From assembly GCA_012515785.1 (NCBI GenBank), contig JAAYXR010000077.1:1-35919 (forward strand): a DNA stretch of 35,919 nt, in the 5' to 3' direction. The translations under genes and the position numbers were made by a program. This DNA is from Acholeplasmataceae bacterium (GTDB taxonomy: Bacteria > Bacillota_I > Bacilli_A > Acholeplasmatales > Acholeplasmataceae). Under the pieces are notes generated by a model. That model worked only from the letters and a program-made list of their open reading frames with translations, was not told where the DNA came from and did no database searches. Of the stretch, positions 6,123 to 30,583 are shown piece by piece (the stretch's first letter is position 1; each line of letters opens with the position of its first letter).

Positions 6123-6147
6123 AAGCCCCGAAAAGGGGCTTTTTTCT
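6123..6147 (+). terminator. Rho-independent terminator
   Basis: AAGCCCC-GAAAA-GGGGCTT followed by TTTTTC. Confidence 0.9.
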
Positions 6148-6221: not shown

Positions 6222-6250
6222 TTGAAAAAGAAAACGTTTTCATATATAAT
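6222..6250 (+). promoter_or_regulatory. Promoter P1 of the glucan locus: TTGAAA (6222-6227), 17-nt spacer, TATAAT (6245-6250)
   Basis: Near-consensus sigma-A elements directly upstream of the first SBP gene. Confidence 0.85.
6230..6241 (+). promoter_or_regulatory. Palindromic operator A (GAAAACGTTTTC) in the P1 spacer; LacI/CcpA-family-type site
   Basis: Perfect 12-bp palindrome with central CG; same element at 19981-19992. Confidence 0.82.
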
Positions 6251-6264
6251 GAGATTAGTACTTA

Positions 6265-6278
6265 TCGAAACGTTTCGA
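6265..6278 (+). promoter_or_regulatory. Palindromic operator B (TCGAAACGTTTCGA) downstream of P1 -10; LacI-type site
   Basis: Perfect 14-bp palindrome; same core at 20016-20029. Confidence 0.85.
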
Positions 6279-6293
6279 GAAAGGTGGAAAGGT

Positions 6294-7781
6294 ATGAAAA
6301 AATTATTTATTGCTTTAATTTTGTTAATGCTTCCGTTTGCTTTAATTGGCTGTAATGGGAAGAATGGTAATAATGGAGATGATGATAATAAACCTCCAAT
6401 TAAAAAAGATGATGTCACGATTACATATGCAGCATGGAACTTAGCAACACCACAAGAATACAATATTGAACGTCGAATGATTAATGCGTTTATGGTTGAA
6501 AATCCTGGTGTTACGGTCGAGGTTATTGAAAGACCAAAAGTTGTTGATGAAGAAGGAAATGAAAAAGACGTAGCTTGGGATGAGTTCTTTGCAACAAGAG
6601 CGTCAGTTAATGAAATGCCTGACGTATTCCAAGTTAACCAAGTGACTAAAGTAGTTAGCCAAGGATGGGTTGAAGATGTTACTGAATTAGCTGAAGCTGA
6701 TGAAGATTTCATGAATGTTCCAGAAAACATTAGAAATACTTGCTACTTAGGTGGAAAAGCATTTTCATTACCACAAGCAGTATTCTATTTTGGTTATTTC
6801 ATTAACAGAACTGCAATTAATGAAACTGGTAGCGGAGCAATTATTCCAAAATATGGTATTACATACCAAGATTTAATGGCTGCTGCTAAGAAGAACTCTA
6901 AACCAGCAGTTTTAGGTGGCGACGCCATTAATGGTATCCAAGGAGTTAATAACATTTATGAATGGTTACCAGCTCAAATTGATCCAACTCTTGGATGGTA
7001 CACCTATAACGATACAGGATATCATTTAGATAGTGATGCTTTTAGAATTGCGATGACTGAAAACCAAAAATTCTTTGGCCCTAATAAAAATGAGTATGCG
7101 AGTTATGTTTTTGAAACTCAAGAAAATCGAGAAGACTTATATGGAACCGGCGATGCGTTTGCCAATGGTAAACAATCAATTCGTTGGGGAGGTTCATTTA
7201 ATATTAGAGGTTGGGTTGGTGGAACTACTAATCCAGAACACGGTTTATATGGACACGACATCGACTTTATTGGAACACCATCATGGGAAGTAAACGGAGT
7301 TAAGACTCACCGAATTCCAGTAGTAATGGATTATATTGGTGTTGGAAAAGGAACTAAACATAAAGAAATCGCCTTTAAATTTGCTAAATGGATGGGCTAT
7401 GGTGCTGATGGATTTAGAAAACGTATTGAAATTGCAACTAATAACCCTGAGGCTGGAGCGATTAACTTTGCCCCAGTAGTAAGAGATCAAGAATTATTAG
7501 ATGCATACTTTGCCCTATATCCAACAATGACTGAATATCGTAAGATTGTTGAGACACACCAAGATTTCATTATTGAATCACTACATAAGATTGTTCCAGG
7601 ATATACCAATAGTAGATGGTCAGGTCAATATGATGCTGAAAATACTATTGATAATGCTTTAATTAAAATTAGAAACGGAGAGCTGGCATTAGCTGATGCC
7701 CTAGCTGCAGGATTAAATAGAAGAGTTAACGAGGAATGGGATTTAGCTAAACAAGAGCTAGATAGAATACTAAACGGATAG
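6294..7781 (+). CDS. ABC-transporter extracellular solute-binding lipoprotein (SBP 1)
   Basis: Lipoprotein signal MKKLFIALILLMLPFALIGC; SBP features YAAWNLATPQEYNIERRMINAFMVENPGVTVEVIERP, MPDVFQVN, AFKFAKWMGYG; ATG at 6294 preferred over 6222, which lies inside the promoter. Confidence 0.9.
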   Translation: MKKLFIALILLMLPFALIGCNGKNGNNGDDDNKPPIKKDDVTITYAAWNLATPQEYNIERRMINAFMVENPGVTVEVIERPKVVDEEGNEKDVAWDEFFATRASVNEMPDVFQVNQVTKVVSQGWVEDVTELAEADEDFMNVPENIRNTCYLGGKAFSLPQAVFYFGYFINRTAINETGSGAIIPKYGITYQDLMAAAKKNSKPAVLGGDAINGIQGVNNIYEWLPAQIDPTLGWYTYNDTGYHLDSDAFRIAMTENQKFFGPNKNEYASYVFETQENREDLYGTGDAFANGKQSIRWGGSFNIRGWVGGTTNPEHGLYGHDIDFIGTPSWEVNGVKTHRIPVVMDYIGVGKGTKHKEIAFKFAKWMGYGADGFRKRIEIATNNPEAGAINFAPVVRDQELLDAYFALYPTMTEYRKIVETHQDFIIESLHKIVPGYTNSRWSGQYDAENTIDNALIKIRNGELALADALAAGLNRRVNEEWDLAKQELDRILNG

Positions 7782-7799
7782 GTCAAGCTGAGGTTTTCT

Positions 7800-10730
7800 A
7801 TGAAAAAGATTTGGTTGGTTGTATATTTAACATTAATTTCGGGTTTGATTTTTTTATCGAGCCCTCATCTTAATGCCAAAAATACCGCAACTCAATCTGA
7901 AAGCCTTGGTTTAGAAGAAACTACCGAATTATCTTATTTTGATGTTGAGCCTAAATGGCGAAAAGAAGGATTAAGAGACGATAACGCTCTTAATTTAGAA
8001 ATTTCGCCTTTAGGCTTTTTTGAACCTAAAGTAATTTATGCTGATGAAGAAAAGGGTGACGTTTTAAAAGTCGATGAACTTTCTTCTAAAGTTGAATTTA
8101 ATGTTGATGTTCCTAAAGCTGGACTATATACATTAAATTTTGAATATAAGGCAATTACTGAATCGGTTAGAAATATTGAAGTATCAATTGTAGTTAATGA
8201 TATCTCACTTTATAAAGAAAGTAAATCAATCATTATTCCAACTTTTTATGATAATTCAAAAGAAATTATTCAAGATCGTTACGGAAATGATATTATGCCA
8301 GTTTCCAATAGATATGAAACATGGACTAATTTTACCTTAAAAGATACACAAAGATTAGTTGAAGATGTTTTACTATTTAAGTTAAATAGGGGAATTAATA
8401 AAATTTCAATTATAAGACAAAACGGAGATTTCTTATTATCTAAGGTAACAGTTAAAAATAAAAAAATATTACCAACATATAAACAATATTTACCAAATAA
8501 TGACGCGTTAAATATTGAAAAAGGGTTTATTAAAACTTTAGAAGCGGAGCAACCACTATATAGAAACTCATTATCGATTAGATATGGTACTGATAGAGAG
8601 AAAAATGTGACTCCGTTTGCTCTTCAAAAACAACGATTAAATATCGTTGATGGTGGTAACTTTCAAACTGGTGGGCAAGCTTTATATTATGATGTTAAAG
8701 TGGAAAAGGCTGGATATTACTATATCACTTTAAAAACGAAACAACTCCAAAACTTCCAAACTAGTTTTAGAAGAATTACGATTAATGGTGAAGTACCATT
8801 TGAAGAAGCGAATTTAATTCCATTTAAAAATCATAAGAAATGGGTTAACTCGACGATTGGAAAAGACGGAGTTGACTATTTATTCTATTTAAAAGAAGGG
8901 AAAAATAGAATTGGAATTGAAGTTAACGTTTCTCCGTTTGCGAAAATCCATCAAAACTTAAATAAAGTTATGATTGGGGTTAACGATATTAGTTTAGATC
9001 TTAAAAAGTTAGCTGGTAGTACTACTGATAAAAATAGAGAATGGGATATTTTAAGTTATCTTCCAAATGTTGTTGATGAACTTCAGTACTATTATGATTT
9101 GTTAGTTGAGTCGGAAAGATTATATCAAGAGATTAACGGTTCAACTAAGGTTAATGAAACTATCTCAGCAATTAAACAAAGTTATGAAACTTTAGAAAAA
9201 CTAATTAAAAAACCTAATACATTACCAAAAAATATTGATAAATTGTCAACTGATTCCAATTCAGTTACCGCTAAAATGGGTTTAGTTATTCCGTTAATTG
9301 TTAGATCACCATTATCAATTGATAAAATATACGTTCATGGGAATACTAAATTGCCAAGACCAAATGCCAACGCGTTTGAGTCTATGTGGTTAGGAATTAA
9401 AAGATTTTTCTTATCATTTTTCAATAATGAATATAAACCAACTAAAAATAGTGAAGTTTTAGAAGTGTGGGTTAACCGTTCACGTCAGTACGTGAACGTG
9501 ATGCAAGAAATGGCTGATGCCACATTTACTAGAGAAACAGGAATTAAAGTTAATATTTCACTAATGCCTGATGAAGGCAAATTAATTATGGCGGTCTCAG
9601 CTGGTTCACAACCAGATGTCGCCTTAGGGGTCTCAGGATGGAGACCATATGATTACGCTTTAAGAAATGCAGTTGCGGATTTAAAACAATTTTCGAACTT
9701 TAAAGAAGTTTCAAAAAGATTTAATGAAGGCGCATTTTTACAATTAATTTATGAAGACGGAGTGTATGCACTTCCGGAAACTCAAAACTTTAATCTATTA
9801 TTTTACCGTGAAGATATTATGAATAAATTAAACATCGAAATTCCTGATACTTGGGATGATGTTTTATCAATTCTTCCGGAGCTTCAACGATATGGATTAA
9901 ATTTCTTCGCTCCATTATCAACTACTGGAGCTTTTAAGGGGTTCGTTCAAACGATGCCGTTTATTAAACAGCATCAAGGTAAAATTCACTCTGATGATGC
10001 TTTAAGGACGACCATTGATTCAGAAGAAGTCATTAAAGCGATGACTTTGATGACCGATTTATATACTATATACTCCCTACCGCTAGAAGTCGGCTCATTT
10101 TATAACAGTTTTAGATATGGTGATATTCCAATTGGAATTGGTGATTTTGGAATGTATGTTAGACTTTTACACGCGGCTCCAGAAATTGCTGGACTTTGGA
10201 AAATTGCCAAATTACCAGGAGTCCTCCGTTCTGATGGGGTAGTGGACAGGTCGTATGACGGGGCTTCCACTAGTGGAGTAATTTTTGAAAAGTCAAAGAA
10301 AAAAGAAGATGCTTGGAAGTTTTTAGATTGGTGGACTAGAGATGATACTCAGTTAAACTATGCCAATAACTTAATTAACTCAATGGGTCCAGAATATATG
10401 TGGAATACATCTAATGTGAACGCATTTAAAGATATGGCATGGGATGAACTTGATAAACAAGTCTTCTTAGACCAATGGCAATGGGTTAATGATACTGAAA
10501 AAACACCAGCATCATATATGATTGAACGCGAGCTGTCGAATGCTTGGAACCGAGTCGTTTTTGACGGAATTAATGTTAGAACGGCAATTGAGGATGCGAC
10601 AGTTACCATAAATAAAGAAATTACTAGGAAAATGAAAGAGTTTGGCTATCTTGATAAAAATGGTAATCACATAAAGACCTACAAGATACCTACCAAAGAT
10701 AGGTTAGGAGAGATTTTATGGGATGAATGA
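7800..10730 (+). CDS. Large SBP: signal peptide, two N-terminal carbohydrate-binding-like beta-sandwich regions, C-terminal SBP_bac_1-like domain (SBP 2)
   Basis: C-terminal [39 protein letters not shown] ... [35 protein letters not shown] ... [16 protein letters not shown]-terminal repeats [25 protein letters not shown] and [25 protein letters not shown] resemble CBM6/35-type folds. Confidence 0.88.
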
Positions 10731-11685
10731 CGTAAAGAAAACATCAAAGGTTAAAACCTTCTTTCAAAAAATTAAATTAAGATTTAAAAAGATTGGTGAT
10801 AAGCACGGCGAAGGATTACTTGGAACTACCTTCATCGCTCCTTACGGACTAGCCTTTTTAGTTTTTATCGTTATTCCGGTATTTATGGGAATCTTTTTGT
10901 CATTTACTACCTTTAATTTAATTGAGTCACCGCGATTTAGTGGTTTAAATAACTATGTTAACTTACTAACTGTTGATGAGAAGTTTATGCAAAAAGTTGT
11001 CCCAAATACGATTGTATTTGCCTTCTTTACCGGTCCAGTTGGTTATGCCCTTTCGTTTTTCTTAGCTTGGCTTTTAGCTCAAGTGCCAAGAAGATCAAGA
11101 ACGGTTTTAGCCTTAGCTATTTATTCACCATCAATGACCGCAGGAGTCGCGATGAGTGTGATGTGGAAAATTATCTTTTCTGGTGATAGATCAGGTTATA
11201 TGAATTCAGTTTTACTTAAAATGGGGTTAATCTCCCAACCAATTCAGTGGTTAACTAACCCAACATATTTAATGCCAATTATGATTGTCGTAACGATTTG
11301 GGGTAGTATGGGAATTGGTTTTTTAGCGATGCTAGCGGGAATTTTAAATGTTAACCCAGAATTATATGAAGCCGCCTATGTTGATGGTATGAAAAGTAAG
11401 TTCCAAGAAATTATTTATATTACGATTCCTTCAATGAAGCCACAAATGTTATTTGGTGCCGTCATGAGTATTGTTGGAACTTTCAATGCCGGAGCGATTG
11501 GGGTCTTACTCTCAGGAACCAACCCAACGCCACAAGATGCCGGACAATTAATTGTCACTCATATTGATGATTATGGTTTTAATCGGTTTGAAATGGGATA
11601 TGCGGCCGCAATTTCGGTTGTTTTATTAATTATGGTTTTATTAATGGGCCGAATTGCGAGAAGATTATTTACAGAAAGGGATTAA
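10723..11685 (+). CDS. Sugar ABC transporter permease (MalF/UgpA-like), pair 1
   Basis: Six hydrophobic segments; [29 protein letters not shown] loop. Confidence 0.93.
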
Positions 11686-11689
11686 GATT

Positions 11690-12562
11690 ATGGCAAGTTT
11701 TAGCGGAACCAAAATAAATCCATCTAAATTACATATATCGCAATGGAAGTTTTTCATTATCTTAATTCCAGTTGCCATTTTTATGGTGCTTCCAATTGTC
11801 TATATTATTAATCATGCCTTCAAACCAGTTGAAGAACTTTTCTTATGGCCACCACGATTTGTCGTGAAAAATCCAACAGTTTCTAACTTCGTTGAGTTAT
11901 TTGCCCAAACTTCACGAACTGGGGTGCCGATGAGTAGATACTTATTTAATAGTATCGTAATTACTTTAACGTTAGTAGTAGTCTCAATTATTCTTTCATC
12001 AATTGCGGGCTATGCATTATCTAAGTTAAAGTTTAAACTCAAAAAACCATTATTATTCTTAAACAATATTGCGTTAATGTTTGTGGGATCAAGTGTTGTC
12101 ATCCCGCGTTATTTAGTAATTGAAAAGTTAGGATTAATTAACAACTTTTTTGTCTATATTTTACCAGCAATTGCAATGCCAGTTGGGTTATTTTTAATTA
12201 AACAATTTATTGACCAAATTCCTGATGAATTAATTGATGCCGCCAAAGTTGATGGCGCTTCTGATTTCAGGATTTACTGGTCAATTGTCTTACCTTTAAT
12301 TAGACCGGCGATTGCAACTATTGCGATTGTGGCCTTCCAAGCTGCTTGGAATGATTCATCAATTGCCTCAACTTATATTGATGATGAATCACTTAAAAAT
12401 TTTGCCTTTTATATGACAACCTTAACCGGAGCTACTAGCGTTGTTTCTGGTCAAGGAATGGCGGCGGCAGCATCGCTCATTATGTTTATTCCTAACTTAG
12501 TTATCTTTATCTTCTTACAACGTAATGTGATGAATACAATGTCACATTCAGGAATTAAGTAG
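11690..12562 (+). CDS. Sugar ABC transporter permease (MalG/UgpE-like), pair 1
   Basis: EAA loop ELIDAAKVDGASDFRIYWSIVLPLIRPAIAT; ATG at 11690 just after the upstream stop preferred over 11654. Confidence 0.93.
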   Translation: MASFSGTKINPSKLHISQWKFFIILIPVAIFMVLPIVYIINHAFKPVEELFLWPPRFVVKNPTVSNFVELFAQTSRTGVPMSRYLFNSIVITLTLVVVSIILSSIAGYALSKLKFKLKKPLLFLNNIALMFVGSSVVIPRYLVIEKLGLINNFFVYILPAIAMPVGLFLIKQFIDQIPDELIDAAKVDGASDFRIYWSIVLPLIRPAIATIAIVAFQAAWNDSSIASTYIDDESLKNFAFYMTTLTGATSVVSGQGMAAAASLIMFIPNLVIFIFLQRNVMNTMSHSGIK

Positions 12563-12570
12563 GTGATATT

Positions 12571-14562
12571 ATGAAGAAAATACTATTAACTTTATTATCA
12601 CTAATCTTAATTGTCGTTTTAATTCCTAATCTCAAAGTATCAGCAGATTCACAAACCTCTGCCCCTTACGATACTTATACAACTGGTCCAAATGGAAGAA
12701 TTATTAAAACGCAAACAGCGTATGAACCAGCCGGAGCAATTAAAATTGGACTTCGCAGTCCCGAAGATCTTTATTTAAAAGATGATATTATTTACATTGC
12801 CGATACCGGCAACAAAAGAATTTTAAAGTACCACTTAGATGGTACTACTGAAGTAATTGTAACTAATTTATCGGAACCTACCGGAGTTCATGTTGACGAA
12901 GAAGATTATATTTATGTCGCTGATAAAGGAGCAAGAGCGGTAGTTAAGTTTGATAAATTCGGTAATAAAGTCAAAACCTTTGAAAAACCAACGGAATTAA
13001 TCTTTGGAACCTCTCCTTACATCCCACTTAAGATAGTAACCGGACCAAAAGGGTTACTATACGTAGTGGGAGAGGGGTCCACAGCAGGTTTAATTCAACT
13101 CTCTTACAATGGCGAGTTTCAAGGATTTTTTGCCGCTAATGAAACAAGAATGAGTTTCGTTCAAAAAGTAGCTAACTTCTTTAAAGTTTCATCAGCGAGT
13201 AATATTCCAGTATCACCATCAAATGTAGCAATTGATGAAAAAGGTTCGATTTATACCGTTAGTAACACTTTTAAAGATAAAACTAAAAAGTTTAATATTG
13301 CTTCTGAAACAATTTTAAAAATTAATTCGGATTTAGTACCAAATTCAATTCATATTAACGAATTTAATAATATTTATGTCTTAACGAATGAAGGTTATAT
13401 TAATGAATATGACCAATATGGTAATATCATTTTCGGTTTTGGTGGTTTAGATACCGGAACGAAACGTTTAGGTTTATTTGTCACTCCAGTTGATATTACC
13501 ACTGACTCTAATCATAATATTTATGTTTTAGATAAAGGGTTAAATGAAATTCAAATTTTCCAACGTAGCGAGTTTACCGCTTTAGTTCATGAAGGATTAA
13601 AAAACAATAAAGATGGTATTTATGATATTAAGCAGTGGGAAGAAGTTTTAAGGATGAACTCGATTTTCTCGGTGGCAAATAGCGCCATCGCTAGAGCGGA
13701 ATACCGGAACCAAAATTATCGTGAAGCGTTAGAATATTATAAGATTGCCACTGACAAAGTTGGCTACAGTGAAGCGTATTGGCAATTAAGATATGATTTT
13801 ATGCAACGCCATATGTTAACGATTTTAATTGTCTTTATCGTTTTATATGTTTTAGTTGCCTCAGTTAAATTTGCTGATCGAAAATGGGGCACTTTCTATT
13901 TTGTTCATGACTTTACTAAAAAAGTTAAATCAAAGAGAAGTGTTAGTGAGTTTTTATTACTATTTAAGATGTTTAGACACCCAATTGATACCGTTCATGA
14001 TGTAAAAAGATATCAAAAATCAAGTAAGAAAACCGCAACAATTATCTATGTGTTATTTGTTGTGGTAATGATTTTATCAAGATATTTAGAATCATTTATC
14101 TTTAGCACGGTTAATTTTGAAAGATTTAATGTCTTTAAAGATGCCTTGATTTTATTTGGGATTGTCTTTTTATTCGTGATTTCTAACTATTTAATTAGTA
14201 GTCTTCAAAATGGTGAGGGTTGGTTAAAAGATGTCTATATTGCGACTAGCTACACGCTAGCCCCAATTATCGTCTTTATGCCGTTTATCACTTTAATGTC
14301 ACATGCCTTAACTTTAAACGAGATGTTTATTTATCAGGCGGCTAATTATATTATCTATGGTTGGGTTTTACTTAACTTAATTATTATGATTAAAGAGGTT
14401 CATAATTATACGATACCTCAATTAATTGGAAATATTTTATTAACTATCTTTACGATGATTATTATTGTAGTGATTGTGGCTTTAATTATCATTTTAGGGA
14501 ATCAACTTTATGAATACGTAAGCGGCATCATAAAAGAGGTGATACAGAGTGTATACATTTAA
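12571..14562 (+). CDS. Exported NHL-repeat beta-propeller protein with C-terminal YIP1-like multispan membrane domain
   Basis: Signal peptide; repeated IYIADTGNKRILKYHLDG / IYVADKGARAVVKFDKFG / IYVLDKGLNEIQIF NHL motifs; TPR-like YREALEYYKIATDKVGYSEAYWQ; several TM segments after residue ~410. Confidence 0.85.
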   Translation: MKKILLTLLSLILIVVLIPNLKVSADSQTSAPYDTYTTGPNGRIIKTQTAYEPAGAIKIGLRSPEDLYLKDDIIYIADTGNKRILKYHLDGTTEVIVTNLSEPTGVHVDEEDYIYVADKGARAVVKFDKFGNKVKTFEKPTELIFGTSPYIPLKIVTGPKGLLYVVGEGSTAGLIQLSYNGEFQGFFAANETRMSFVQKVANFFKVSSASNIPVSPSNVAIDEKGSIYTVSNTFKDKTKKFNIASETILKINSDLVPNSIHINEFNNIYVLTNEGYINEYDQYGNIIFGFGGLDTGTKRLGLFVTPVDITTDSNHNIYVLDKGLNEIQIFQRSEFTALVHEGLKNNKDGIYDIKQWEEVLRMNSIFSVANSAIARAEYRNQNYREALEYYKIATDKVGYSEAYWQLRYDFMQRHMLTILIVFIVLYVLVASVKFADRKWGTFYFVHDFTKKVKSKRSVSEFLLLFKMFRHPIDTVHDVKRYQKSSKKTATIIYVLFVVVMILSRYLESFIFSTVNFERFNVFKDALILFGIVFLFVISNYLISSLQNGEGWLKDVYIATSYTLAPIIVFMPFITLMSHALTLNEMFIYQAANYIIYGWVLLNLIIMIKEVHNYTIPQLIGNILLTIFTMIIIVVIVALIIILGNQLYEYVSGIIKEVIQSVYI

Positions 14563-16771
14563 ACGAATTGTCTTACTAGTAATAGTTGCGGCAACAGCGA
14601 TTCTTTCTAGTAATGTTAAACCTAAATATGATGTTGTTACTGAGTCAGTTAATGTGGCACCGCAATATAGTTCTTTAATTTCTAATCGGTATACGCAAAA
14701 AGAAGAAGATTTAAGAATTGCGAAAAATGATTATATTGATTTAATTGATTATCAAAGACTAGGTGCAGTTAATAATTTAGAACTTTATGTTAAACAAGAT
14801 GATTTATCATTTAGAGTTGTTAATCTTGATACGGGTTATATTTGGGGAAGTAATTTTAATTTTGATTATTTAGATGAAACTTCACCACTACATGATCCAG
14901 GGGATCTTGGAGCTAATGAAGGGTGGAAGCGAATCTTTAATTCACCAGCTTCAGTTAGTTATTATCATAAAACTAATCTTCGTGAAGAGTATTTATATAC
15001 TAACGCCTTATCAAGAAAAACATTTGTTAATATTACGACAACTAATAGAGTTGGCTTCCGTGCTAAAACTTCATTCTTTTTATCAAAAGTTAAATTTGAT
15101 TATGAAGTCTATTTAGACAAAGAAGGACTTCACTTTGAAGTCCCATTTGATTTGATTGAAGAAGGAGAAACTTTCAAATTAGCTAGTATTAAACTCTATC
15201 CATTCTTTGGCGCCGCTAAACGGAACCGGATTCCTGGTTATGTCTTTGTTCCGGACGGAATGGGGGCGTTAATTCGCTTTGATGATGAATACGATAAAGG
15301 TGTTTATACTAAACGGTTTTATGGTCCTGATTACGGAATTTATTTAAAATCAGATGAAGAATATTTAACCCTAAATACTTATGGGGTGGTCCACGGAGTT
15401 AATCAAAACGGGTTTTTATCAGTGATTGATAGTGGGGCTTCACATGCTATTTTAAGCCACTATCCATCACAAATAACGACCGATTTTAATCATACATACG
15501 TTTCATATGAATATCGGAAAGATTATGTTCAATATTTAAACAAATCAAAAACAAGTAGTGTAATTTTAGTTCAAGAAAATAAAAATAAATATGATATCAA
15601 ACAATCATTTTATTTCTTATCAGGAGATAAGGCTAACTATGTTGGTATGGCTAATAAGTATAAAGATAATTTGATTAAAGAAGGCGTTTTAGAAAAAACA
15701 AATCATAATGAAATACCAATTCATTTTGACGTCTTAATGAGTGAATCTAAAAAAGCTTTTATTGGTAGGAAAATCATTTCAATGACTACCATTAATGAAC
15801 TTGATGAAATAATTTCAAGATTAAATAGCAATCAAGTTAAAAATATTACTCTTACCTTACGTGGCTGGCAAAAAGGCGGATATTCACTAACCGCCCCAAG
15901 ATATAACAGTGTTGAAGCCCGAATTGGTGGACAAAGAGACTTAACAAAATTTAATGAAAATCATCAAAATGTTTATTTAGAAGCCGATTATTTTAAGGTC
16001 AGTAGTTACGGCACTAATTATCATAAAGCTGATGTTGGCCAATCAATTGGTCAACAATTACTTGAAGAAAATGCCGGTAGATCATATTTTTTAAGACCTG
16101 ATGTGAGTATCAAAAAATATGAAAGTCATTTAGAAAAAATGGCTCGGTATTCAGATGGCATTCATCTGTCTTCAACTAACTATTTATATAGTGAGTTTTC
16201 AAGTAATCGTAATCGTGAAGAGCAAATTGAAACGATGAAAGAATTTTTATCAAAAGCCAATCAGACATCAGTTTCAAAGCCATTCGCTTATTTATTAGGA
16301 GCTAATCGAATTACTGATGTCGCGCTTTATTCATCGCAACAAAAAAGATTTAGTGATACCGTTCCATTTTTAGCGATTGTCTTAAGTGGATATAAAGATG
16401 TTTTTGGTAGAAACGCTAACTTCTTTGCTAATACGACCAATGAATTACTAAGATTAGTTGATTATCATATTTATCCGTCATTTTATATTACTAATGAATC
16501 AAGTTATTATTTACTAAATACTGGAAGCGAAAATATATATACTTCAAGATATTTAGATTGGGAAGAAGAAATTAAACGTCAATATGATTTTGTTAATGAA
16601 GCGTTAAAACATGTTGCAAATGAGCGTATAGTTTCAAGAACTGTTTTAGATGCTGGTTTTGTAAAAGTTAGTTATGCTAACGGAGTAAGTATTTATATAA
16701 ATTATTCAGGGACTATGAAAGTTGACGGGGCAGTTAGTGTCCAACCTAGTAGTTATCAGGTGATCTTATGA
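14549..16771 (+). CDS. DUF5696-like exported/membrane-anchored protein, candidate uncharacterised carbohydrate-active enzyme
   Basis: GTG start overlapping the upstream stop; N-terminal hydrophobic segment; architecture and gene context recalled from DUF5696 proteins (FVPDGMGALIRF, ITLTLRGWQKGGYS). Confidence 0.65.
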   Translation: MYTFKRIVLLVIVAATAILSSNVKPKYDVVTESVNVAPQYSSLISNRYTQKEEDLRIAKNDYIDLIDYQRLGAVNNLELYVKQDDLSFRVVNLDTGYIWGSNFNFDYLDETSPLHDPGDLGANEGWKRIFNSPASVSYYHKTNLREEYLYTNALSRKTFVNITTTNRVGFRAKTSFFLSKVKFDYEVYLDKEGLHFEVPFDLIEEGETFKLASIKLYPFFGAAKRNRIPGYVFVPDGMGALIRFDDEYDKGVYTKRFYGPDYGIYLKSDEEYLTLNTYGVVHGVNQNGFLSVIDSGASHAILSHYPSQITTDFNHTYVSYEYRKDYVQYLNKSKTSSVILVQENKNKYDIKQSFYFLSGDKANYVGMANKYKDNLIKEGVLEKTNHNEIPIHFDVLMSESKKAFIGRKIISMTTINELDEIISRLNSNQVKNITLTLRGWQKGGYSLTAPRYNSVEARIGGQRDLTKFNENHQNVYLEADYFKVSSYGTNYHKADVGQSIGQQLLEENAGRSYFLRPDVSIKKYESHLEKMARYSDGIHLSSTNYLYSEFSSNRNREEQIETMKEFLSKANQTSVSKPFAYLLGANRITDVALYSSQQKRFSDTVPFLAIVLSGYKDVFGRNANFFANTTNELLRLVDYHIYPSFYITNESSYYLLNTGSENIYTSRYLDWEEEIKRQYDFVNEALKHVANERIVSRTVLDAGFVKVSYANGVSIYINYSGTMKVDGAVSVQPSSYQVIL

Positions 16772-17649
16772 AGTTAAGTAATAGACAACGAGAAAATTTA
16801 TATGGATATCTATTTATCGGAATTTGGATTATTGGGTTTTTATGGCTAACCTTGTATCCGCTAATTATGAGCTTTATTTATTCTTTAAATAAGGTTACGA
16901 TTACGGCAGCAGATGGAATTGTCTTAACTCCAATTAAACTCCAAAATTATGTCGATATTTTTTCAAAGGATTTTAACTTTGTTAACGCATTAACCGACTT
17001 TATTGGTGAGATTGTTTTATTCGTTCCAATCATTATTATTATGTCAATTATTATCGCTCTTTTATTAAATCAAAAGATTAGATTAAGAGGAGTATTTAGA
17101 TCAATTTTCTTCTTACCAGTTATCATTGCTTCAGGGCCAATGATTACGGAATTAATTAGACAAGGCGCGGGAACAGTTCCGATATTTGAAGATGCGGAAG
17201 CGTTAGCATTTGTTGAACAGTTACCAAGATTTTTAGCCAATCCAATTTTATCGTTATTTAGTAAGATGATTATTGTCTTATGGTTTTCAGGAGTTCAAAT
17301 TGTTTTATTCTTAGCTGCGCTTCAAAAAGTTGATAGTGAAATTTATGAAGCGGCATCAATTGATGGTGCTAGTCCGTGGGAAATGTTTTGGAAGATTACC
17401 TTACCAACCTTAAAGCCAACAATTTTAATTTCATCAATTTATACCATTGTCTTTCTAGCTACTTTCTCAAGTAATAGCGTTTTAGTTCATATTCAAAATA
17501 ATATGTTTGATATTACGACTGGATATGGTTATTCAAGTGCACTGGCTTGGATTTACTTTGTTGTAATTTCAATTTTACTTGGAATCGTCTATCTTCTATT
17601 TAAACAAAGGAAAGAAAGAAAAGAGAAGAAAGTGAGGCGAGTAAGATGA
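16768..17649 (+). CDS. Sugar ABC transporter permease (MalF-like), pair 2
   Basis: EAA loop EIYEAASIDGASPWEMFWKITLPTLKPTIL; ATG overlaps upstream stop (ATGA). Confidence 0.93.
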   Translation: MKLSNRQRENLYGYLFIGIWIIGFLWLTLYPLIMSFIYSLNKVTITAADGIVLTPIKLQNYVDIFSKDFNFVNALTDFIGEIVLFVPIIIIMSIIIALLLNQKIRLRGVFRSIFFLPVIIASGPMITELIRQGAGTVPIFEDAEALAFVEQLPRFLANPILSLFSKMIIVLWFSGVQIVLFLAALQKVDSEIYEAASIDGASPWEMFWKITLPTLKPTILISSIYTIVFLATFSSNSVLVHIQNNMFDITTGYGYSSALAWIYFVVISILLGIVYLLFKQRKERKEKKVRRVR

Positions 17650-18572
17650 AAGCCGAACGAGTCAAGTCAAAGTTAAGAAAAACTTTAATTGGGATGAAGT
17701 TTGTTGATGGACTATTATTTAAAATTTTAGTCTACGGACTTTTAATCATTTTGGCGTTTGTTTATCTTTATCCACTTCTTCATATGGTTAGTTATTCATT
17801 TCAAGGGGTAGAAGATTTATTAAATCCAATGGTTAACCAAGTTCCAACTGAATTGTATGTTCAAAACTACAAAGAAGCTTTCTTAGTTTTAGATTATTTT
17901 AAAACATTAAGAACTAGTTTATTAATTACGTTAGTACCAGCGTTAGTTCAAACGATTATTGCTAGTTTAGTTGGTTATGGGTTTGCGCGATTTAATTTCC
18001 GCGGCAAGAAGTTTTGGATGATGTTAGTTTTAGCAACATATATTATCCCTCCGCAAGTAACCATGATTCCGCGATATGTCTTATTCCATAAATTAGGTTT
18101 CTTAGGAAAAGCCCTATCAATTATTGTACCAGCGACCTTTGGTCAAGGATTAAATAGTGCCATCTTCATCTTAATTTTCTATCATTTCTTTAGTCAAATT
18201 CCAAAATCATTAGATGAAGCTGCACAAATGGATGGCGCTAGTCCACTTTATATTTATTTTAGAGTTTCGGTTCCACTATCAATTCCAAGTTTTATTACTT
18301 CATTTTTATTTTCATTTGTTTGGTATTGGAATGAAACATATATTTCATCATTATTCTTGGGTAGTAAAAACCCAACACTACAAATGATGTTACAAAACTT
18401 CGTTTCCGCCTATAAGTCGGTAATGGGCGGCGATGATGGCTCAAGAATAGCTAATGAGGCGGTTAGAATGGCTGCCACACTATTAATCATTTTACCGATG
18501 ATAATCATATATTTTATCCTTCAAAGATGGTTCATTGAAGGAATTGACAAGGCGGGGATTACAGGTGAATAA
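17646..18572 (+). CDS. Sugar ABC transporter permease (MalG-like), pair 2
   Basis: EAA loop SLDEAAQMDGASPLYIYFRVSVPLSIPSF; overlaps upstream gene. Confidence 0.93.
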   Translation: MKAERVKSKLRKTLIGMKFVDGLLFKILVYGLLIILAFVYLYPLLHMVSYSFQGVEDLLNPMVNQVPTELYVQNYKEAFLVLDYFKTLRTSLLITLVPALVQTIIASLVGYGFARFNFRGKKFWMMLVLATYIIPPQVTMIPRYVLFHKLGFLGKALSIIVPATFGQGLNSAIFILIFYHFFSQIPKSLDEAAQMDGASPLYIYFRVSVPLSIPSFITSFLFSFVWYWNETYISSLFLGSKNPTLQMMLQNFVSAYKSVMGGDDGSRIANEAVRMAATLLIILPMIIIYFILQRWFIEGIDKAGITGE

Positions 18573-19944
18573 AAAAAGTTTAATTGTTTTATTATTAGTA
18601 TTTTCTTTAATATCTTTATTTGGATGCAAGAAAAATGACAAACCAAAACCACCAGAACCACCAGAGCCACCAATTATTATTGATGAGGATGAAGTTGCTT
18701 GGGGGTTAGTTAAAGATGAAGCTAATTTATGTTTCCAGTTTTTCATGGAAACAACGAATTTTAAAGATGGAAGTTTAGGATACGGCCTAGCGCGTGATCG
18801 GTGGCCAGATAACCAGTATATGGCCAGTATTGCCAGTGTCGGGTTTATGTTAGCCTCACTTCCATATGGGGTTGAAAACAAGTTAATTACTCGTGAGCTA
18901 GCATTTGAGAGAGCCTCAAAAACCATGGACACATTACTTAGACTTAAAAATTACTCAGGTTTTTTCTATCACTGGATGGATATGAGAAATGGGATTGAGT
19001 TAGATGGTAGTGAAGTCTCAGTTATTGACACGGCATTAATGTTAGCTGGAGCCATTGTTGCTGGTGAGTATTTTGGCGGCGAAGTTAAAACGAAAATGCA
19101 ACAAATTTATGACCGAATTGATTGGAATTTCTACGTTAATAAAGATCGCAATATGTTTTATATGGGGTATAAACCAAATGCTGGCGGATTTTCAGGAGCA
19201 TGGGACCACATTAGCGAACAAATGATAATGTATGTTATGGGGGCTGGATCTTCAACTCACCCAATTGACGCGTCATTATATCGAACAGTTAAAAATATCG
19301 CGATGATGAATTACCGCGGCCGCTATAAATCAAAAAATTATGAAACGGAAACGTTTATTTATGTTGGAAATGGCTCTCTTTTCCAACATCAATTCTCACA
19401 TGCATTTATTGACTTTAGAAATATTGTTGACCATCAAGGAACTAATTGGTTTAAAAATGCGACTGAAGCTACTAAAGCTAACTATTATTTTTGCAAAGAC
19501 GAAGCATATAAATATATCGCTTATCAAGATGCTTGGGGAATTTCAGCTGGAGATCACCCGTTTGGTTATAAAGCATTCGGATCACCACCAGCTAAAAACC
19601 ACTCGCATAATGGCACCATTATGCCGTATGCAGCCTTAGCTAGTATCAATTACACACCAGAGTATACCTTTGAAGCGGTAAGACATTTTGATACTTTAGA
19701 AAAGTTAAAAGGCAATTATGGCTATGTCGATGCCTATAACTTAGGACCGGTTGATCCAACGTTCTTTCCACAACTAGCAGAAAGAGCTCCTTGGTATGAT
19801 AATGACGTTTTAGGAATTGACAAAGGAATTACTTTGTTGATGATAGCAAATTACGAAAGTAATTTAATTTGGAACTTATTTATGCAAAATGCAAATGTTC
19901 AAAGAGGATTAGAGATTCTTGAATTCAGACCGGCAACTGAATAA
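18565..19944 (+). CDS. Lipoprotein with glucoamylase-like (PF10091-type) domain, GH144-like; predicted extracellular beta-1,2-glucanase
   Basis: GTG start at 18565 with GGCGGGG upstream; lipobox SLISLFGC; GYGLARDRWPDNQYMASIASVGFMLASLPYGVE, GFFYHWMDMRNG, EVSVIDTALMLAGAIVAGEYF, LFQHQFSHAFIDFRNIVD, YQDAWGISAGDHPFGYKAFG, NGTIMPYAALAS. Confidence 0.85.
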   Translation: MNKKSLIVLLLVFSLISLFGCKKNDKPKPPEPPEPPIIIDEDEVAWGLVKDEANLCFQFFMETTNFKDGSLGYGLARDRWPDNQYMASIASVGFMLASLPYGVENKLITRELAFERASKTMDTLLRLKNYSGFFYHWMDMRNGIELDGSEVSVIDTALMLAGAIVAGEYFGGEVKTKMQQIYDRIDWNFYVNKDRNMFYMGYKPNAGGFSGAWDHISEQMIMYVMGAGSSTHPIDASLYRTVKNIAMMNYRGRYKSKNYETETFIYVGNGSLFQHQFSHAFIDFRNIVDHQGTNWFKNATEATKANYYFCKDEAYKYIAYQDAWGISAGDHPFGYKAFGSPPAKNHSHNGTIMPYAALASINYTPEYTFEAVRHFDTLEKLKGNYGYVDAYNLGPVDPTFFPQLAERAPWYDNDVLGIDKGITLLMIANYESNLIWNLFMQNANVQRGLEILEFRPATE

Positions 19945-19972
19945 AGAACTTTGATAAAATGTTTAAACGGAC

Positions 19973-20001
19973 TTGAAAATGAAAACGTTTTCAAGTATAA
20001 T
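19973..20001 (+). promoter_or_regulatory. Promoter P2: TTGAAA (19973-19978), 17-nt spacer, TATAAT (19996-20001)
   Basis: Same layout as P1, upstream of the 927-aa lipoprotein gene. Confidence 0.87.
19980..19993 (+). promoter_or_regulatory. Operator A copy 2 (TGAAAACGTTTTCA) in the P2 spacer; fits the general cre/LacI-family pattern
   Basis: Perfect 14-bp palindrome. Confidence 0.85.
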
Positions 20002-20014
20002 GGTAGTAGTAGAA

Positions 20015-20030
20015 ATCGAAACGTTTCGAT
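20015..20030 (+). promoter_or_regulatory. Operator B copy 2 (ATCGAAACGTTTCGAT) downstream of P2 -10
   Basis: Perfect 16-bp palindrome. Confidence 0.87.
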
Positions 20031-20054: not shown

Positions 20055-22838
20055 ATGAAGAAATTTTTATTAGCGATTTTGATGTTATTTAGTGTCGTCG
20101 CGCTTGTTGCGTGCGAAGACAAACCAAAACCACCAGAGCCACCAGTTGAAACTGATACAGTTAAACCGGTAATTACGGTTCCAGGGGCTGAGGTTGAAAT
20201 TTATGTAGGAGATACGTTTGATCCAATGTTAAACGTTACAGCTCAAGATAACAAAGATGGAAATCTTACTTCAAGTATTACCTATACATCATCTCCAGCA
20301 TTAGATGTTAACACACCAGGAAGATATACAATTACTTACAAAGTTAAGGATAGTGCGGGTAACGAAGGAACTAAACAAGTAGTAGTTATTGTTCAATCAC
20401 GTCCACAAGGACTAGGAATTGGAAACCCTGACTTTGATGAGTGGGATGAAGAAAAAGGTATGCCTGTTGGCTGGACTAATTGGGTAAATAGATCTCAAGA
20501 TGTTGAAGCTACCTTCTCACACGGAGAAAGTATGGCTATCGTTGATGTTACCGCTCAATCAACAGTTAAAGATAATAACTGGTGGGACGTTCAATTCAGA
20601 TGTGAAACAGTTACCTTCCCAGCATTTGAATCTTATACTTTAAGAATTTGGGCATATGCAGAACATCCAAGATATATGATGGTTAACATTCAAGAAGGCG
20701 GATTAGCTCAAAAAGCAATTGATGCTAAATTAATTGAATTAGGAACTGAAGTTCCAACCGAACCAATCGAAATTGATTTCTTCGGTTTACAAGATGCTAA
20801 CAACGCAATGCTTCAATTCAACTTAGGTACATTCCATAAAGTTGCTGATACACATCCAGACAAACAAACAGTTTTAGGAAAAGTGTATTTCATGAAAGTT
20901 GAAGTAGTTAGTGGTCCACCAATTGAAAACCAAGCACCATTATTAACTGGTAGTGATATTTTAGTTGCTATTGGTCAAGACGTTTTATTAAAACAAGGTA
21001 TTAAAGTTAAAGACGATAGAGATAATTTAACTTTAAACGACGTTAAAGTAGAACCTGTTGGTGATCCAATTGATGTTAACAAACCAGGCGTTTATGAGTA
21101 TCGTTATACTGTTAAAGACTCTGGAGGATTAGAAACATCAATTACTAGAAAATTCATTGTTGGTTCATTTGTTATCCCAACTATGGATAAATGGACTTCA
21201 TGGGTTGAAGCTGGAAAAGCTGAACAAGTTGTTACAGCAGCAGCAGGCTCTAAAGAAGCTAAAATTGAAATTACTAAACTAGGAGAAAAAGCATGGCATA
21301 ACCAATTCAAACTAACTGGTTTAATGGGAACTAAAGGAACTTATCGTATTAAGTTTACTGCGTCTGCTAACCCAGCTAGAACGATTGTCTTTGCGTTAGA
21401 ACAAAACTATGGTGTTGGTGTTCCAAGAGCATGGCACAGAGTTGAATTAACTCCAGAAGAACAAGTATTCAAGTTTGATTTAACATTACCAGCTGATGCA
21501 AAAGCTCCAGGTCAATTCCAATTCTTCATGGGTGATGCTAGCCATGATACTGCTTTTGCAGATGGTGTCTTTGTTAAATCACTAATCACTATTAAAGACG
21601 TTGCCGTTAGAGAAGTTCTTCCAGAAGCTGGATTAAAGAATGGAAACTTTGCTGAGTGGGATGATGCAAACGGAGTACCTCTTGGCTGGACTAAATGGGT
21701 TAACGAATCTCAAGATGTTGCGGCAACATACTCTCAAGTTGACGGCAAAGCAGTTATTGATATTACTGCACAATCAATTGTTAAAGATAATAACTGGTGG
21801 GATGTTCAATTAAAATATCCAAACTTAGTTTTCGATGCTTATGAATCATATACCTTAAAGATTTGGGCATATGCTGAAAAAGCTAGATTTATGAGAATTA
21901 ACCTTGATGGCGGCGGCTTACCTGAAAGACCAATTAACGAACTTCAAGTTGAACTTGGAACTACAGTTCCAACTGAACCAATTTCAATTAATTTCTTTGG
22001 TAAAGGTGATGCGGTTAACGCAGCATTAACCTTCCACTTAGGTACCTTCCATAAGGTTGCTGGAGTTCCAGATGAAAAGAAAACTGTATTAGGTAAAGTC
22101 TACTTTGTTAAAGTTGAAATTGTTGAAGGACCTGAATTAGTAAACCAAGCACCAACATTACAAGGTGGCCCAGTTGTTACTGATGTGGGTGTAGAAATTG
22201 ATATTAAGAAGGGTATTAAAGTTCAAGACGATATGGACGTTATGAAATTAGCTGACGTTGTTGCCACTCCTGTCGGAGCAGCGTTAGATATTAATACTCC
22301 AGGCGTTTATGAATATAAATATGTTGCTACTGACTCAGAAGGATTAACTGCAGAATTAGTAAGAAAGATTTATGTCGGCTCATTTGTCGTTCCAACTATG
22401 GACAAATGGACTCAATGGTCTGGTGATGGCGGAACTCAAGTTGTAACTGCACCAGCAGGATCAACTGAAGCTTCAATCGAAATTACAGCACTTGGACCAA
22501 ACGCATGGCACAATCAATTCAAACTTACTAATACAATTGCGACTAAAGGAACATATGTAATTAAGTTTACTATTTCATCAACTGTTGCCAGAACAGCAGT
22601 CTTCGCTCTAGAACAAAACTATGGGGTTGGCGTTCCAAGAGTATGGCACAGACTAGATTTAACACCAACTGAACAAACTTTGGAGTTTGAAATTACTTTA
22701 CCTCAAGATGCAACTTCAGTCGGTCAATTCCAATTCTTCTTCGGAAAAGCTTCAGATGAAGCAGGCTTTGAAGACGGAGTCTTCGTTCTATCAACGATTG
22801 TAATTAAGAATTTCACAGTTACTAAAAAAGTAGCTTAG
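20055..22838 (+). CDS. Surface lipoprotein: Ig-like (DUF5011-type) domain plus two tandem ~400-aa glycan-binding-like modules
   Basis: Lipobox FSVVALVAC; PVITVPGAEVEIYVGDTFDPMLNVTAQDNKDGNLTSSITYTSS Ig-like; long internal duplication (see repeat features). Confidence 0.85.
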   Translation: MKKFLLAILMLFSVVALVACEDKPKPPEPPVETDTVKPVITVPGAEVEIYVGDTFDPMLNVTAQDNKDGNLTSSITYTSSPALDVNTPGRYTITYKVKDSAGNEGTKQVVVIVQSRPQGLGIGNPDFDEWDEEKGMPVGWTNWVNRSQDVEATFSHGESMAIVDVTAQSTVKDNNWWDVQFRCETVTFPAFESYTLRIWAYAEHPRYMMVNIQEGGLAQKAIDAKLIELGTEVPTEPIEIDFFGLQDANNAMLQFNLGTFHKVADTHPDKQTVLGKVYFMKVEVVSGPPIENQAPLLTGSDILVAIGQDVLLKQGIKVKDDRDNLTLNDVKVEPVGDPIDVNKPGVYEYRYTVKDSGGLETSITRKFIVGSFVIPTMDKWTSWVEAGKAEQVVTAAAGSKEAKIEITKLGEKAWHNQFKLTGLMGTKGTYRIKFTASANPARTIVFALEQNYGVGVPRAWHRVELTPEEQVFKFDLTLPADAKAPGQFQFFMGDASHDTAFADGVFVKSLITIKDVAVREVLPEAGLKNGNFAEWDDANGVPLGWTKWVNESQDVAATYSQVDGKAVIDITAQSIVKDNNWWDVQLKYPNLVFDAYESYTLKIWAYAEKARFMRINLDGGGLPERPINELQVELGTTVPTEPISINFFGKGDAVNAALTFHLGTFHKVAGVPDEKKTVLGKVYFVKVEIVEGPELVNQAPTLQGGPVVTDVGVEIDIKKGIKVQDDMDVMKLADVVATPVGAALDINTPGVYEYKYVATDSEGLTAELVRKIYVGSFVVPTMDKWTQWSGDGGTQVVTAPAGSTEASIEITALGPNAWHNQFKLTNTIATKGTYVIKFTISSTVARTAVFALEQNYGVGVPRVWHRLDLTPTEQTLEFEITLPQDATSVGQFQFFFGKASDEAGFEDGVFVLSTIVIKNFTVTKKVA
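20415..21614 (+). repeat. Internal coding repeat unit 1 of the 927-aa lipoprotein (approximate bounds)
   Basis: GNPDFDEWDEEKGMPVGWTNWVNRSQDV ... NNWWDVQF ... GSFVIPTMDKWTSW ... FALEQNYGVGVPRAWHRVEL ... FQFFMGDASHD. Confidence 0.85.
21630..22829 (+). repeat. Internal coding repeat unit 2 of the 927-aa lipoprotein (approximate bounds)
   Basis: GNFAEWDDANGVPLGWTKWVNESQDV ... NNWWDVQL ... GSFVVPTMDKWTQW ... FALEQNYGVGVPRVWHRLDL ... FQFFFGKASDE. Confidence 0.85.
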
Positions 22839-22846
22839 TTTAGCTC

Positions 22847-22881
22847 ATAAAAGGCGCATGCTAACTACATGCGCCTTTTAT
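22847..22881 (+). terminator. Strong intrinsic terminator/attenuator hairpin inside the locus
   Basis: ATAAAAGGCGCATG-CTAACTA-CATGCGCCTTTTAT, 14-bp perfect stem, 7-nt loop. Confidence 0.82.
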
Positions 22882-22895
22882 TTAATTACTTGATA

Positions 22896-24107
22896 ATGAA
22901 ATCGACTGAAATAATTAAAAAAATTGAAAAAACTGCAATTAAGTTCTTTTCAAAATATACTAACTTAAATGAAAACCAAACTGGATATGGTTTAACGATA
23001 GATAGTACCAATAATTTAGATGTTGCTACAATTGCCGGTAGTGGCTTCATGTTATCCAGTTTAATTATAGCTGATAAAAGAGGATATCTTGAAAGAGATG
23101 AAGCAATCAAGATAGCGAGGAATACCCTTAAAAACTTTTATGACAACATTAGTCATTATGAAGGGTTTTTTATCCATTTCGCTAATTTTAAGACTGGCCA
23201 AAGATATAAACTTTGCGAGTATTCAACGGTTGATACGATGATTTTTTTGTGCGGAGCGATTGCAGTTGATAGTTATTTTCAAGATGAAGTAATTAATAAA
23301 TATTTTAAGAAGTTAATTAATCGAATTAATTTTCCAAAATTTGTTCATATAAAAGATGGTAAGCCAACCTTTTATATGGCGTATAACCCCGACCGTCAAG
23401 GTCAATATGTTAGAGGTGAACCAGGATTTATTCATCACTGGTCAATGTTTGCTGAACAATTACCACTATATGTAATCTATGCCGGATTAGGATATGAAAA
23501 TGCCCTTGATGTTTATCACAGTTTTAAGCGCGTTAAAGGTTCGTATAAAGATATTGAATATATTTATACCCCAGGTAATGCATTATTTGTTTATCAATAT
23601 CCACTTACATTTTTAGATTTAGAAAAAATTTGTGATGATGAAGGTATCAACTGGCATGATAACGCTAAAAAAGCAATCTTAGCTCATCAAAGGCTTGCCG
23701 TGGATATTAGTGATATTTATTCATCTTTTAACAAATACGCTTTTGGGTTTACTGCGGGAATGACTAAAACTGGATATCAAGTTTTCCGCGGTTTACCAAA
23801 CATTGAAAATAAATATGCCACCGATGGTACAGTTCATCCGAATGCCATCGTCGGATCACTTAGTATTGCTAATGAGATTACTGTACCGGGAGTCGAATAT
23901 TTATATAACAAACCTAACTTATTCCAAGAATACGGATTTGTTAGTGGTTATAATGAGGATCAAGACTGGGTGGCTAGTTGCTATTTATCAATCGACAAAG
24001 GATTAGAGATGTTAATGGCTAATGCCTACTTATCTAATGATGTTAGAAGGGCATTTATGAACCACGAAATTATTAAAAAAGGACTTAAAGCATTAAAATG
24101 GGAGTAA
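22896..24107 (+). CDS. Cytoplasmic glucoamylase-like (PF10091-type), GH144-like enzyme without signal peptide
   Basis: YGLTIDSTNNLDVATIAGSGFMLSSLI, GFFIHFANFKTGQ, EYSTVDTMIFLCGAIAVDSYF, FVYQYPLTFLDLEKICD, TDGTVHPNAIVGSL mirror the lipoprotein paralogue; the annotated start 22869 falls inside the terminator stem, 22896 is preferred. Confidence 0.8.
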   Translation: MKSTEIIKKIEKTAIKFFSKYTNLNENQTGYGLTIDSTNNLDVATIAGSGFMLSSLIIADKRGYLERDEAIKIARNTLKNFYDNISHYEGFFIHFANFKTGQRYKLCEYSTVDTMIFLCGAIAVDSYFQDEVINKYFKKLINRINFPKFVHIKDGKPTFYMAYNPDRQGQYVRGEPGFIHHWSMFAEQLPLYVIYAGLGYENALDVYHSFKRVKGSYKDIEYIYTPGNALFVYQYPLTFLDLEKICDDEGINWHDNAKKAILAHQRLAVDISDIYSSFNKYAFGFTAGMTKTGYQVFRGLPNIENKYATDGTVHPNAIVGSLSIANEITVPGVEYLYNKPNLFQEYGFVSGYNEDQDWVASCYLSIDKGLEMLMANAYLSNDVRRAFMNHEIIKKGLKALKWE

Positions 24108-25642
24108 TTTATCAAATCTATCCCTTAAGCTTTTTAGATACCAATCAAGATGGTATCGGCGATATTAGGGGGATAATTCAAAAAATTAAATACCTAAAAG
24201 AATTAGGAGCCCAGTATATTTGGATTACTCCGATTTTCAAGTCTCCAATGGAAGATAATGGTTATGATATCAGTGATTATTATAAAATTCACCCAATGTT
24301 TGGTAATATGGATGATTTAAAAGAATTAATTAGTATTGCTAAAGAACACAAAATAAAAATTATTTTAGATTTAGTGTTAAATCATACTAGTACTAAACAC
24401 CATTGGTTTAAAGAAGCTAAAAAAGATATTAATAGTAAATATCACGATTATTACATTTGGAGTAATAATCCACCAAAAATTGATTCGATCTTTGGTGGTT
24501 CGGCTTGGGAATATATTAAGAAGATTGATAAATACTATCTCCATATGTTTTCTATAGGCCAAGCCGATTTAAACTGGAAAAATAAACAGTTAAGAGAAGA
24601 ACTATATCAAATGATTAATTACTATATTGATATGGGGGTTGGTGGCTTTAGATTAGATGTTTTAGATTTAATCGGAAAAGATTTAGAAAATAATAATTTA
24701 TATAATAGCGATTTATTATTAACTTATTTAAAAGAACTAAACGAAAGATGTTTTAAAGGAAAAGATATTTTTACTGTCGGTGAGATGAATTTACCACTTG
24801 AAAGAGCTCACTACCTAAGTAAAAATGAAATATTAACGACAGTATTTCAATTTAACCATATTGCCTTAGATGAAGTAGCGGGTAAAGGCAAATGGGAACT
24901 TAAAAAACTTGAATTAAATGATTTAAAGAAAGTACTAAATCAAATTCAAGAAGTTTATCAAAAAGATGGAATGCCGTCACTATTTTGGTCAAATCACGAC
25001 CAACCGCGAGCCCTTGGTAGGTATTTAAATTTAGACTATCGTTACTACGGACAAACAATGTTATTTATGCTTATGTATTTACAAAAGGGACATATCTTTA
25101 TTTATCAAGGCGAAGAATTTGGTATGTCAGGACTAGGCAAAGTAGGGATCGATAAATATCAAGATATCGAGGCAATCAATTATTACAATATTGCCATTAA
25201 GACTAAACCGGTTGAAGAAGTATTAGAAAGTTTATCAGTTAAAGCCAGAGATCATGCGCGAACACCAATGCAATGGAATGATTCGAAGTATGCTGGTTTT
25301 TCACAAGTTAAACCGTGGATGGATGTTAATCAAAACTACCATGAGGTTAACTTTGAAAAAGACTATTATAGCGAAAAGTCAATTTATAAATTTTTGAAAA
25401 AATTATTAGAAATTAGACAAAATAATTCGGTATTTGATAAAGGTTTATTTAAACCAGTTGATTTAGGAAAACACATCTTTGCCTATGAAAGAGTGTTAGA
25501 AGATAACTATTTAGTAGTGTGCAACTTTAGTGATAAAAACCAACCATTTAATAAAATTAAAGGTGAAATTTTACTAAATAATTATAACGATATAAATGGC
25601 GTATTAAGGCCTTATCAAGCGTTATTAATTAAAAGGAGGTAG
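24098..25642 (+). CDS. GH13 alpha-glucosidase (oligo-1,6-glucosidase / exo-alpha-glucosidase-like), cytoplasmic
   Basis: GH13 signatures IIQKIKYLKELGAQYIWITPIFKSPMEDNGYDISDYYKIHPMFG, DLVLNHTS, GFRLDVLDLIGK, VGEMN, SNHDQPR, ARDHARTPMQWN. Confidence 0.92.
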   Translation: MGVIYQIYPLSFLDTNQDGIGDIRGIIQKIKYLKELGAQYIWITPIFKSPMEDNGYDISDYYKIHPMFGNMDDLKELISIAKEHKIKIILDLVLNHTSTKHHWFKEAKKDINSKYHDYYIWSNNPPKIDSIFGGSAWEYIKKIDKYYLHMFSIGQADLNWKNKQLREELYQMINYYIDMGVGGFRLDVLDLIGKDLENNNLYNSDLLLTYLKELNERCFKGKDIFTVGEMNLPLERAHYLSKNEILTTVFQFNHIALDEVAGKGKWELKKLELNDLKKVLNQIQEVYQKDGMPSLFWSNHDQPRALGRYLNLDYRYYGQTMLFMLMYLQKGHIFIYQGEEFGMSGLGKVGIDKYQDIEAINYYNIAIKTKPVEEVLESLSVKARDHARTPMQWNDSKYAGFSQVKPWMDVNQNYHEVNFEKDYYSEKSIYKFLKKLLEIRQNNSVFDKGLFKPVDLGKHIFAYERVLEDNYLVVCNFSDKNQPFNKIKGEILLNNYNDINGVLRPYQALLIKRR

Positions 25643-25647
25643 TTGTA

Positions 25648-26604: not shown

Positions 26605-26642
26605 ATTAACTAAATTAGTATAAAAAATAAGGCGGGATTGAT

Positions 26643-29861: not shown

Positions 29862-29875
29862 AAAAGGTAATAAAT

Positions 29876-30577: not shown

Positions 30578-30583
30578 TTAACT

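Follow-up and report, generated by a model that had tools for sequence, protein, structure and literature searches.

Dual control of sugar-utilisation genes by CcpA and a local LacI-type regulator is well known and standard, and the mechanism as such is not new. In the fructo-oligosaccharide clusters of Lactobacillus plantarum, the regulators are CcpA and the local SacR1 and SacR2, the binding of which was determined by EMSA and ChIP (PMC7419226). In Bacillus subtilis, the cre of bglPH and of acuABC overlaps the core promoter, where CcpA reportedly keeps the polymerase from binding; the cre consensus is WTGNNARCGNWWWCAW (PMC3463425). The LacI-family regulons of RegPrecise are characterised by even palindromes with a central CG and include local sugar regulons, with CcpA as the global member; the main text of that study makes no mention of sophorose (PMC4052901). 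For beta-1,2-glucan clusters, the searchable literature on regulation holds just one suggestion, namely that lin1838, the LacI gene of the Listeria innocua 1,2-beta-oligoglucan cluster lin1838–lin1843, is a possible regulator (PMC3960220).

The window, that is, the whole stretch of 35,919 nucleotides analysed here, is, judged from the proteins that it encodes, a beta-1,2-glucan utilisation locus of an Acholeplasma-like genome, with predicted enzyme activities. Relatives of an endo-beta-1,2-glucanase, of a 1,2-beta-oligoglucan phosphorylase and of a sophoro-oligosaccharide-binding protein are all present: (i) the protein encoded at 22869–24107 matches the endo-beta-1,2-glucanase structure 5gzh; (ii) the protein encoded at 26643–29861 has SOGP domains in Pfam and matches the structure 5h3z across nearly its full length (E = 2e-215); and (iii) the second solute-binding protein of the gene run behind promoter P1 matches Lin1841 of Listeria innocua. 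This run is followed by a second one behind promoter P2 (Table 1). The stretch from 19944, where the P1 run ends, to P2 yielded no terminator-like hairpin, so P2 may be an internal promoter. The NHL-repeat/Yip1 and DUF5696 proteins of the P1 run (12571–16771) are retained within the glucan gene run of two relatives (G115 and G101).

Comparison of the window with the systems described above revealed that (i) like the Listeria cluster, it has a LacI gene next to genes for SOGP, GH3 and an ABC transporter, with a binding protein resembling Lin1841 and a phosphorylase of the SOGP type, but is larger than the cluster described in PMC3960220 and differs from it in having GH144-type enzymes and two promoters; (ii) as in the RegPrecise LacI regulons, its operators are even palindromes with a central CG, belonging to a local sugar regulon for which CcpA would be the global regulator; (iii) as in the L. 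plantarum clusters, the promoter regions of the same cluster carry both a global cre and a local palindrome that resembles the cre but differs from it, whereas the sugar and the operator sequences are different, and binding, established there by EMSA and ChIP, is what we infer here; and (iv) it shares with bglPH and acuABC the cre consensus and the overlap with the promoter, whereas in the window the cre-like operator A lies wholly within the -35/-10 spacer and is accompanied by a second LacI-type operator, B, downstream. In the L. plantarum clusters, local repression is lifted by the substrate and the effect of glucose is exerted via CcpA, and the same logic is proposed for the window. What is new is the regulon, together with the operator sequence and its spread from Acholeplasmatales to Bacillales. 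The locus provides a concrete, testable operator, ATCGAAACGTTTCGAT, and a regulon for beta-1,2-glucan use in both orders, and points to catabolite control of individual promoters in a lineage with reportedly small CcpA regulons (PMC5138195).

Operators A and B at promoters P1 and P2

The preliminary description had placed a pair of distinct palindromes, A and B, at each of the two promoters, with their centres 36 bp apart, and rereading of the sequence confirmed these positions. The centres lie at 6235.5 (A) and 6271.5 (B) at P1 and at 19986.5 (A) and 20022.5 (B) at P2. Two outer half-site positions differ between A and B, in the same way at both promoters. Operator A of P2 fits the 14-mer cre core exactly, and that of P1 has 1 mismatch (A for T at position 1). 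The P1 core sequence is also retained in two relatives (G001 and G115), and the P1 operator A has the same position ahead of the -10 box in close relatives.

Table 1. Promoters, operators and gene runs of the window.
Feature	Position	Strand	Description	Basis
Terminator-like hairpin	6123–6141	+	Upstream of P1	
P1 core promoter	6222–6250	+	-35 TTGAAA (6222–6227), 17-nt spacer, -10 TATAAT (6245–6250)	11/12 consensus positions
Operator A of P1	6229–6242	.	GAAAACGTTTTC (6230–6241), within the spacer; cre-like 14-mer AGAAAACGTTTTCA	1 mismatch to the cre form TGNAANCGNWTNCA
Operator B of P1	6264–6279	.	TCGAAACGTTTCGA (6265–6278), centred near the predicted +15	No exact B elsewhere in the genome except at P2
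P1 gene run	6294–19944	+	2 solute-binding proteins, 2 permease pairs, NHL/Yip1 protein, DUF5696 protein, GH144-type protein	ORFs, Pfam
P2 core promoter	19973–20001	+	TTGAAA (19973–19978), 17-nt spacer, TATAAT (19996–20001)	11/12 consensus positions
Operator A of P2	19980–19993	.	Perfect cre-type palindrome TGAAAACGTTTTCA	0 mismatches to the cre form
Operator B of P2	20015–20030	.	ATCGAAACGTTTCGAT	
P2 gene run	20055–32629	+	Ig/CBM4 protein, GH144-type endo-beta-1,2-glucanase relative, GH13, LacI, 1,2-beta-oligoglucan phosphorylase (SOGP), alpha/beta hydrolase, GH3	Pfam; matches to the solved structures 5gzh and 5h3z
Local LacI-family repressor, proposed reader of B	25648–26604	+	Recognition helix SISTASLALND	Pfam LacI and Peripla_BP_3; B-clade tree

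The genome is a 1.04-Mb draft assembly, in which pattern searches were run and named stretches were examined; the assembly is 68% complete, so sites in the missing part escape the following counts. The exact B 14-mer occurs in the assembly at P1 and P2 only. The pair A-N24-B, with up to 3 mismatches, was likewise found in the genome at P1 and P2 only, and the backwards-read control gave 0 matches in 150 genomes. A–B pairs, which would be expected elsewhere if they were a common property of unrelated promoters, are thus confined to these two in the assembly. The arrangement of A and B at P1 and P2 is not due to chance.

The two operators are likely to subject the sigma-A-type promoters of one beta-1,2-glucan regulon to substrate induction, through B, and to catabolite repression, through A. 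When the start site is taken 7 nt after the -10 box, the centres of B and A fall at about +15 and -21, respectively. B, located just past the -10 box, would resemble a classical primary operator, from which the local LacI would block the start of transcription as long as the substrate is absent; a beta-1,2-gluco-oligosaccharide, the presumed effector, would free B from LacI. The lacI gene lies behind P2, so LacI would be autoregulated. A would act as a cre that overlaps the -35/-10 spacer and covers the stretch between the polymerase contact boxes, and the CcpA homologue bound to it would exclude RNA polymerase, acting with HPr that HPr kinase has phosphorylated in the presence of a better sugar. 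Either protein, once bound, would prevent initiation, and full expression would require the substrate to be present and the preferred sugar to be absent. In this scheme, we infer the binding, the identity of the effector and the direction of the effect. The A centre at about -21 counts against the cre reading, because it matches neither of the positions (-27 and -14) at which the strongest CcpA repression was reported in B. subtilis (PMC3463425).

Positions of A and B in related genomes

The sample for INDEPENDENCE and spacing consisted of the B sites obtained when relatives were scanned for B only, with near-duplicates removed (n = 69). A cre with up to 1 mismatch was located within 60 bp upstream of B at 20 of these 69 sites, compared with 0.17 in shuffles; because the related genomes are not independent, this count stands for non-randomness rather than for 20 separate origins. 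Another enrichment figure, 21/28, came partly from loci found via the pair search, and 20/69 is the cleaner one. At the other 49 sites A is missing, so A is not required for B, and the two sites come and go separately. Many B-bearing relatives are without A, and catabolite control through A would therefore not be universal among them.

At core promoters, the start of A precedes that of the -10 box by 16 bp in the Acholeplasma relatives (by 15 bp in one) and by 22 bp in most of the Bacillales, and B starts 13 to 22 bp past the start of the -10 box. The distance between A and B at homologous core promoters is 29 or 33–38 bp; the values at the two promoters of close relatives are 36/33 (G001), 35/34 (G002), 36/34 (G115) and 37/37 (G091), and in some other relatives the cre lies 47–56 bp upstream of B. 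The 36-bp spacing, which had been regarded as a shared feature of the two promoters, is thus not conserved, and we rejected it as a constraint: A is nearly fixed relative to the -10 box, and B shifts. Since the spacing varies among relatives, the equal 36 bp of the window would reflect either coincidence or a recent common origin of both promoters. The accompanying argument for two proteins, which was drawn from a distance of about 3.4 helical turns, also falls, as such a distance has no bearing on how many different proteins bind. On these measurements, each site is placed with reference to the promoter, which would be expected if the two act as separate blocks.

A selected distance would be expected if CcpA and its paralogue, the local LacI, bound cooperatively, interacting at a preferred 33–38 bp around one core promoter and forming a two-input gate that extends from Acholeplasmatales to Bacillales. 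The core-promoter pairs do cluster at 33–38 bp, every Bacillales pair has a distance of 35 bp even though the pair as a whole is placed 6–7 bp further upstream relative to the -10 box, and a different gene in the genome has a cre and another palindrome 34 bp apart. Such cooperation is nevertheless very unlikely, because the differing values of the four close relatives, the 29 bp found in two others and the distant pairs at 47–56 bp reveal no fixed geometry, and the constancy of the Bacillales pairs can be explained by shared ancestry.

Candidate reader of A

It had been suggested from the palindromes that two LacI-family proteins may read them, the local one at B and one of the CcpA type at A, and all the sequence tests that were run support this assignment: (i) B goes with one LacI clade; (ii) A matches the cre consensus and recurs without B at other genes; (iii) the genome encodes a CcpA homologue and an HPr kinase; and (iv) the gain and loss of A are independent of those of B. 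A is very probably the cre for CcpA, and B the site for the local LacI. A degenerate A scan of the whole genome with 2 mismatches gave no more matches than the control and was dropped, so that exact cre-type matches alone are used as evidence. The exact cre form TGNAANCGNTTNCA occurs at 9 sites in the genome, compared with 1 in the backwards control. Cre-like sites without B precede a GH13 gene, the gene of a CBM48 protein and the gene of a PnrA-like binding protein (transporter).

The CcpA homologue is encoded on contig C175. The best PDB matches of this protein are CcpA structures (top match 1rzr, E = 3e-68), and it retains an SLATISR helix and, near the C terminus, the motif YDIGAVAMRLLTK, which we take to be the HPr-contact signature and which is absent from the local LacI (25648–26604). 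Among the NCBIfam models, TIGR01481 is the best by more than 100 bits; the score of 283 bits lies under the equivalog cut-off of 442, and for this reason we name the protein "CcpA homologue". One clear orthologue exists in 38 of 41 genomes, its own genome counted, and an HPr kinase is encoded in the genome (E = 4e-67). According to a published survey, CcpA is present in Acholeplasmatales (PMC5138195). The genome has five LacI-family genes, and A could in principle be read by another of their products, encoded on contig C116, C117 or C49, instead of by CcpA. We consider this very unlikely, because A has the canonical cre sequence, which recurs before several unrelated genes, and because the C117 gene has a different palindrome, TTGACAACGTTGTCAA, directly upstream.

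A degenerate cre, TGAAAGCATTTTCA on the gene strand (L119:1513–1526, contig C175), is located about 50 bp upstream of the gene for the CcpA homologue, which suggests that this gene is autoregulated.

Candidate reader of B and further palindromes

Eighty loci were fetched with the local LacI as the query, and sites with up to 2 mismatches were counted as B-like. The recognition helix in the 29 nearest loci (L024–L052) reads [ILV]ST[AV]S, followed mostly by Y, L or I. B-like sites are present in 28 of these 29 loci with the helix pattern of the local LacI, compared with 1 weak match in the 51 other LacI loci, and the sole locus without B (L027) is a 3.1-kb contig. In the tree, the 29 LacIs, the window LacI and the LacI of G101 form one supported group (99/85), which also takes in one second LacI copy from L024. 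In the relatives, B stands before the same genes, encoding the solute-binding protein, the Ig/CBM4 protein or the GH144-type proteins. The local LacI has LacI DNA-binding and sugar-binding domains, and its gene is located inside the regulated cluster; its best NCBIfam match, the RbsR equivalog, scores 189 bits, under the 382-bit cut-off. Taken with high confidence, the local LacI would be the reader of B. That it is the only reader of the two palindromes, one being a strong and the other a weak operator, would fit the AAACGTTT core common to A and B and their closeness at both promoters, but is highly improbable in view of the 49 of 69 B sites without A, the A-type sites at genes without B, the two outer half-site positions that differ alike at both promoters and the different recognition helices of the two proteins.

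In Bacillales loci (L033–L050), B sites are often paired about 155–250 bp apart near glucan genes, so the local LacI could form loops there; no pairs at such a distance are present in the window. An exact B also occurs at a separate place in G101 (L152/L208; G101:C1:72051–72064); the 400 bp downstream of it contain no homologue of any gene of the window, and it is possibly the site of a further regulon member.

Other palindromes of these types were found in the genome. On contig C27 (L121:1896–1945), a cre-type palindrome, TGAAACCGTTTTCA, is followed 34 bp downstream by a different LacI-type palindrome, GGAAATCGGTTTCC; this second pair of a cre and a local operator precedes a GDPD/3-keto-disaccharide-hydrolase-like gene. 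The palindrome of contig C117 (L117:4338–4353) is perfect and stands ahead of a LacI gene different from that of the window. The 14-mer TGACAACGTTGTCA also occurs 61 bp before LacI genes on three Chloroflexota contigs (L067, L084 and L086).
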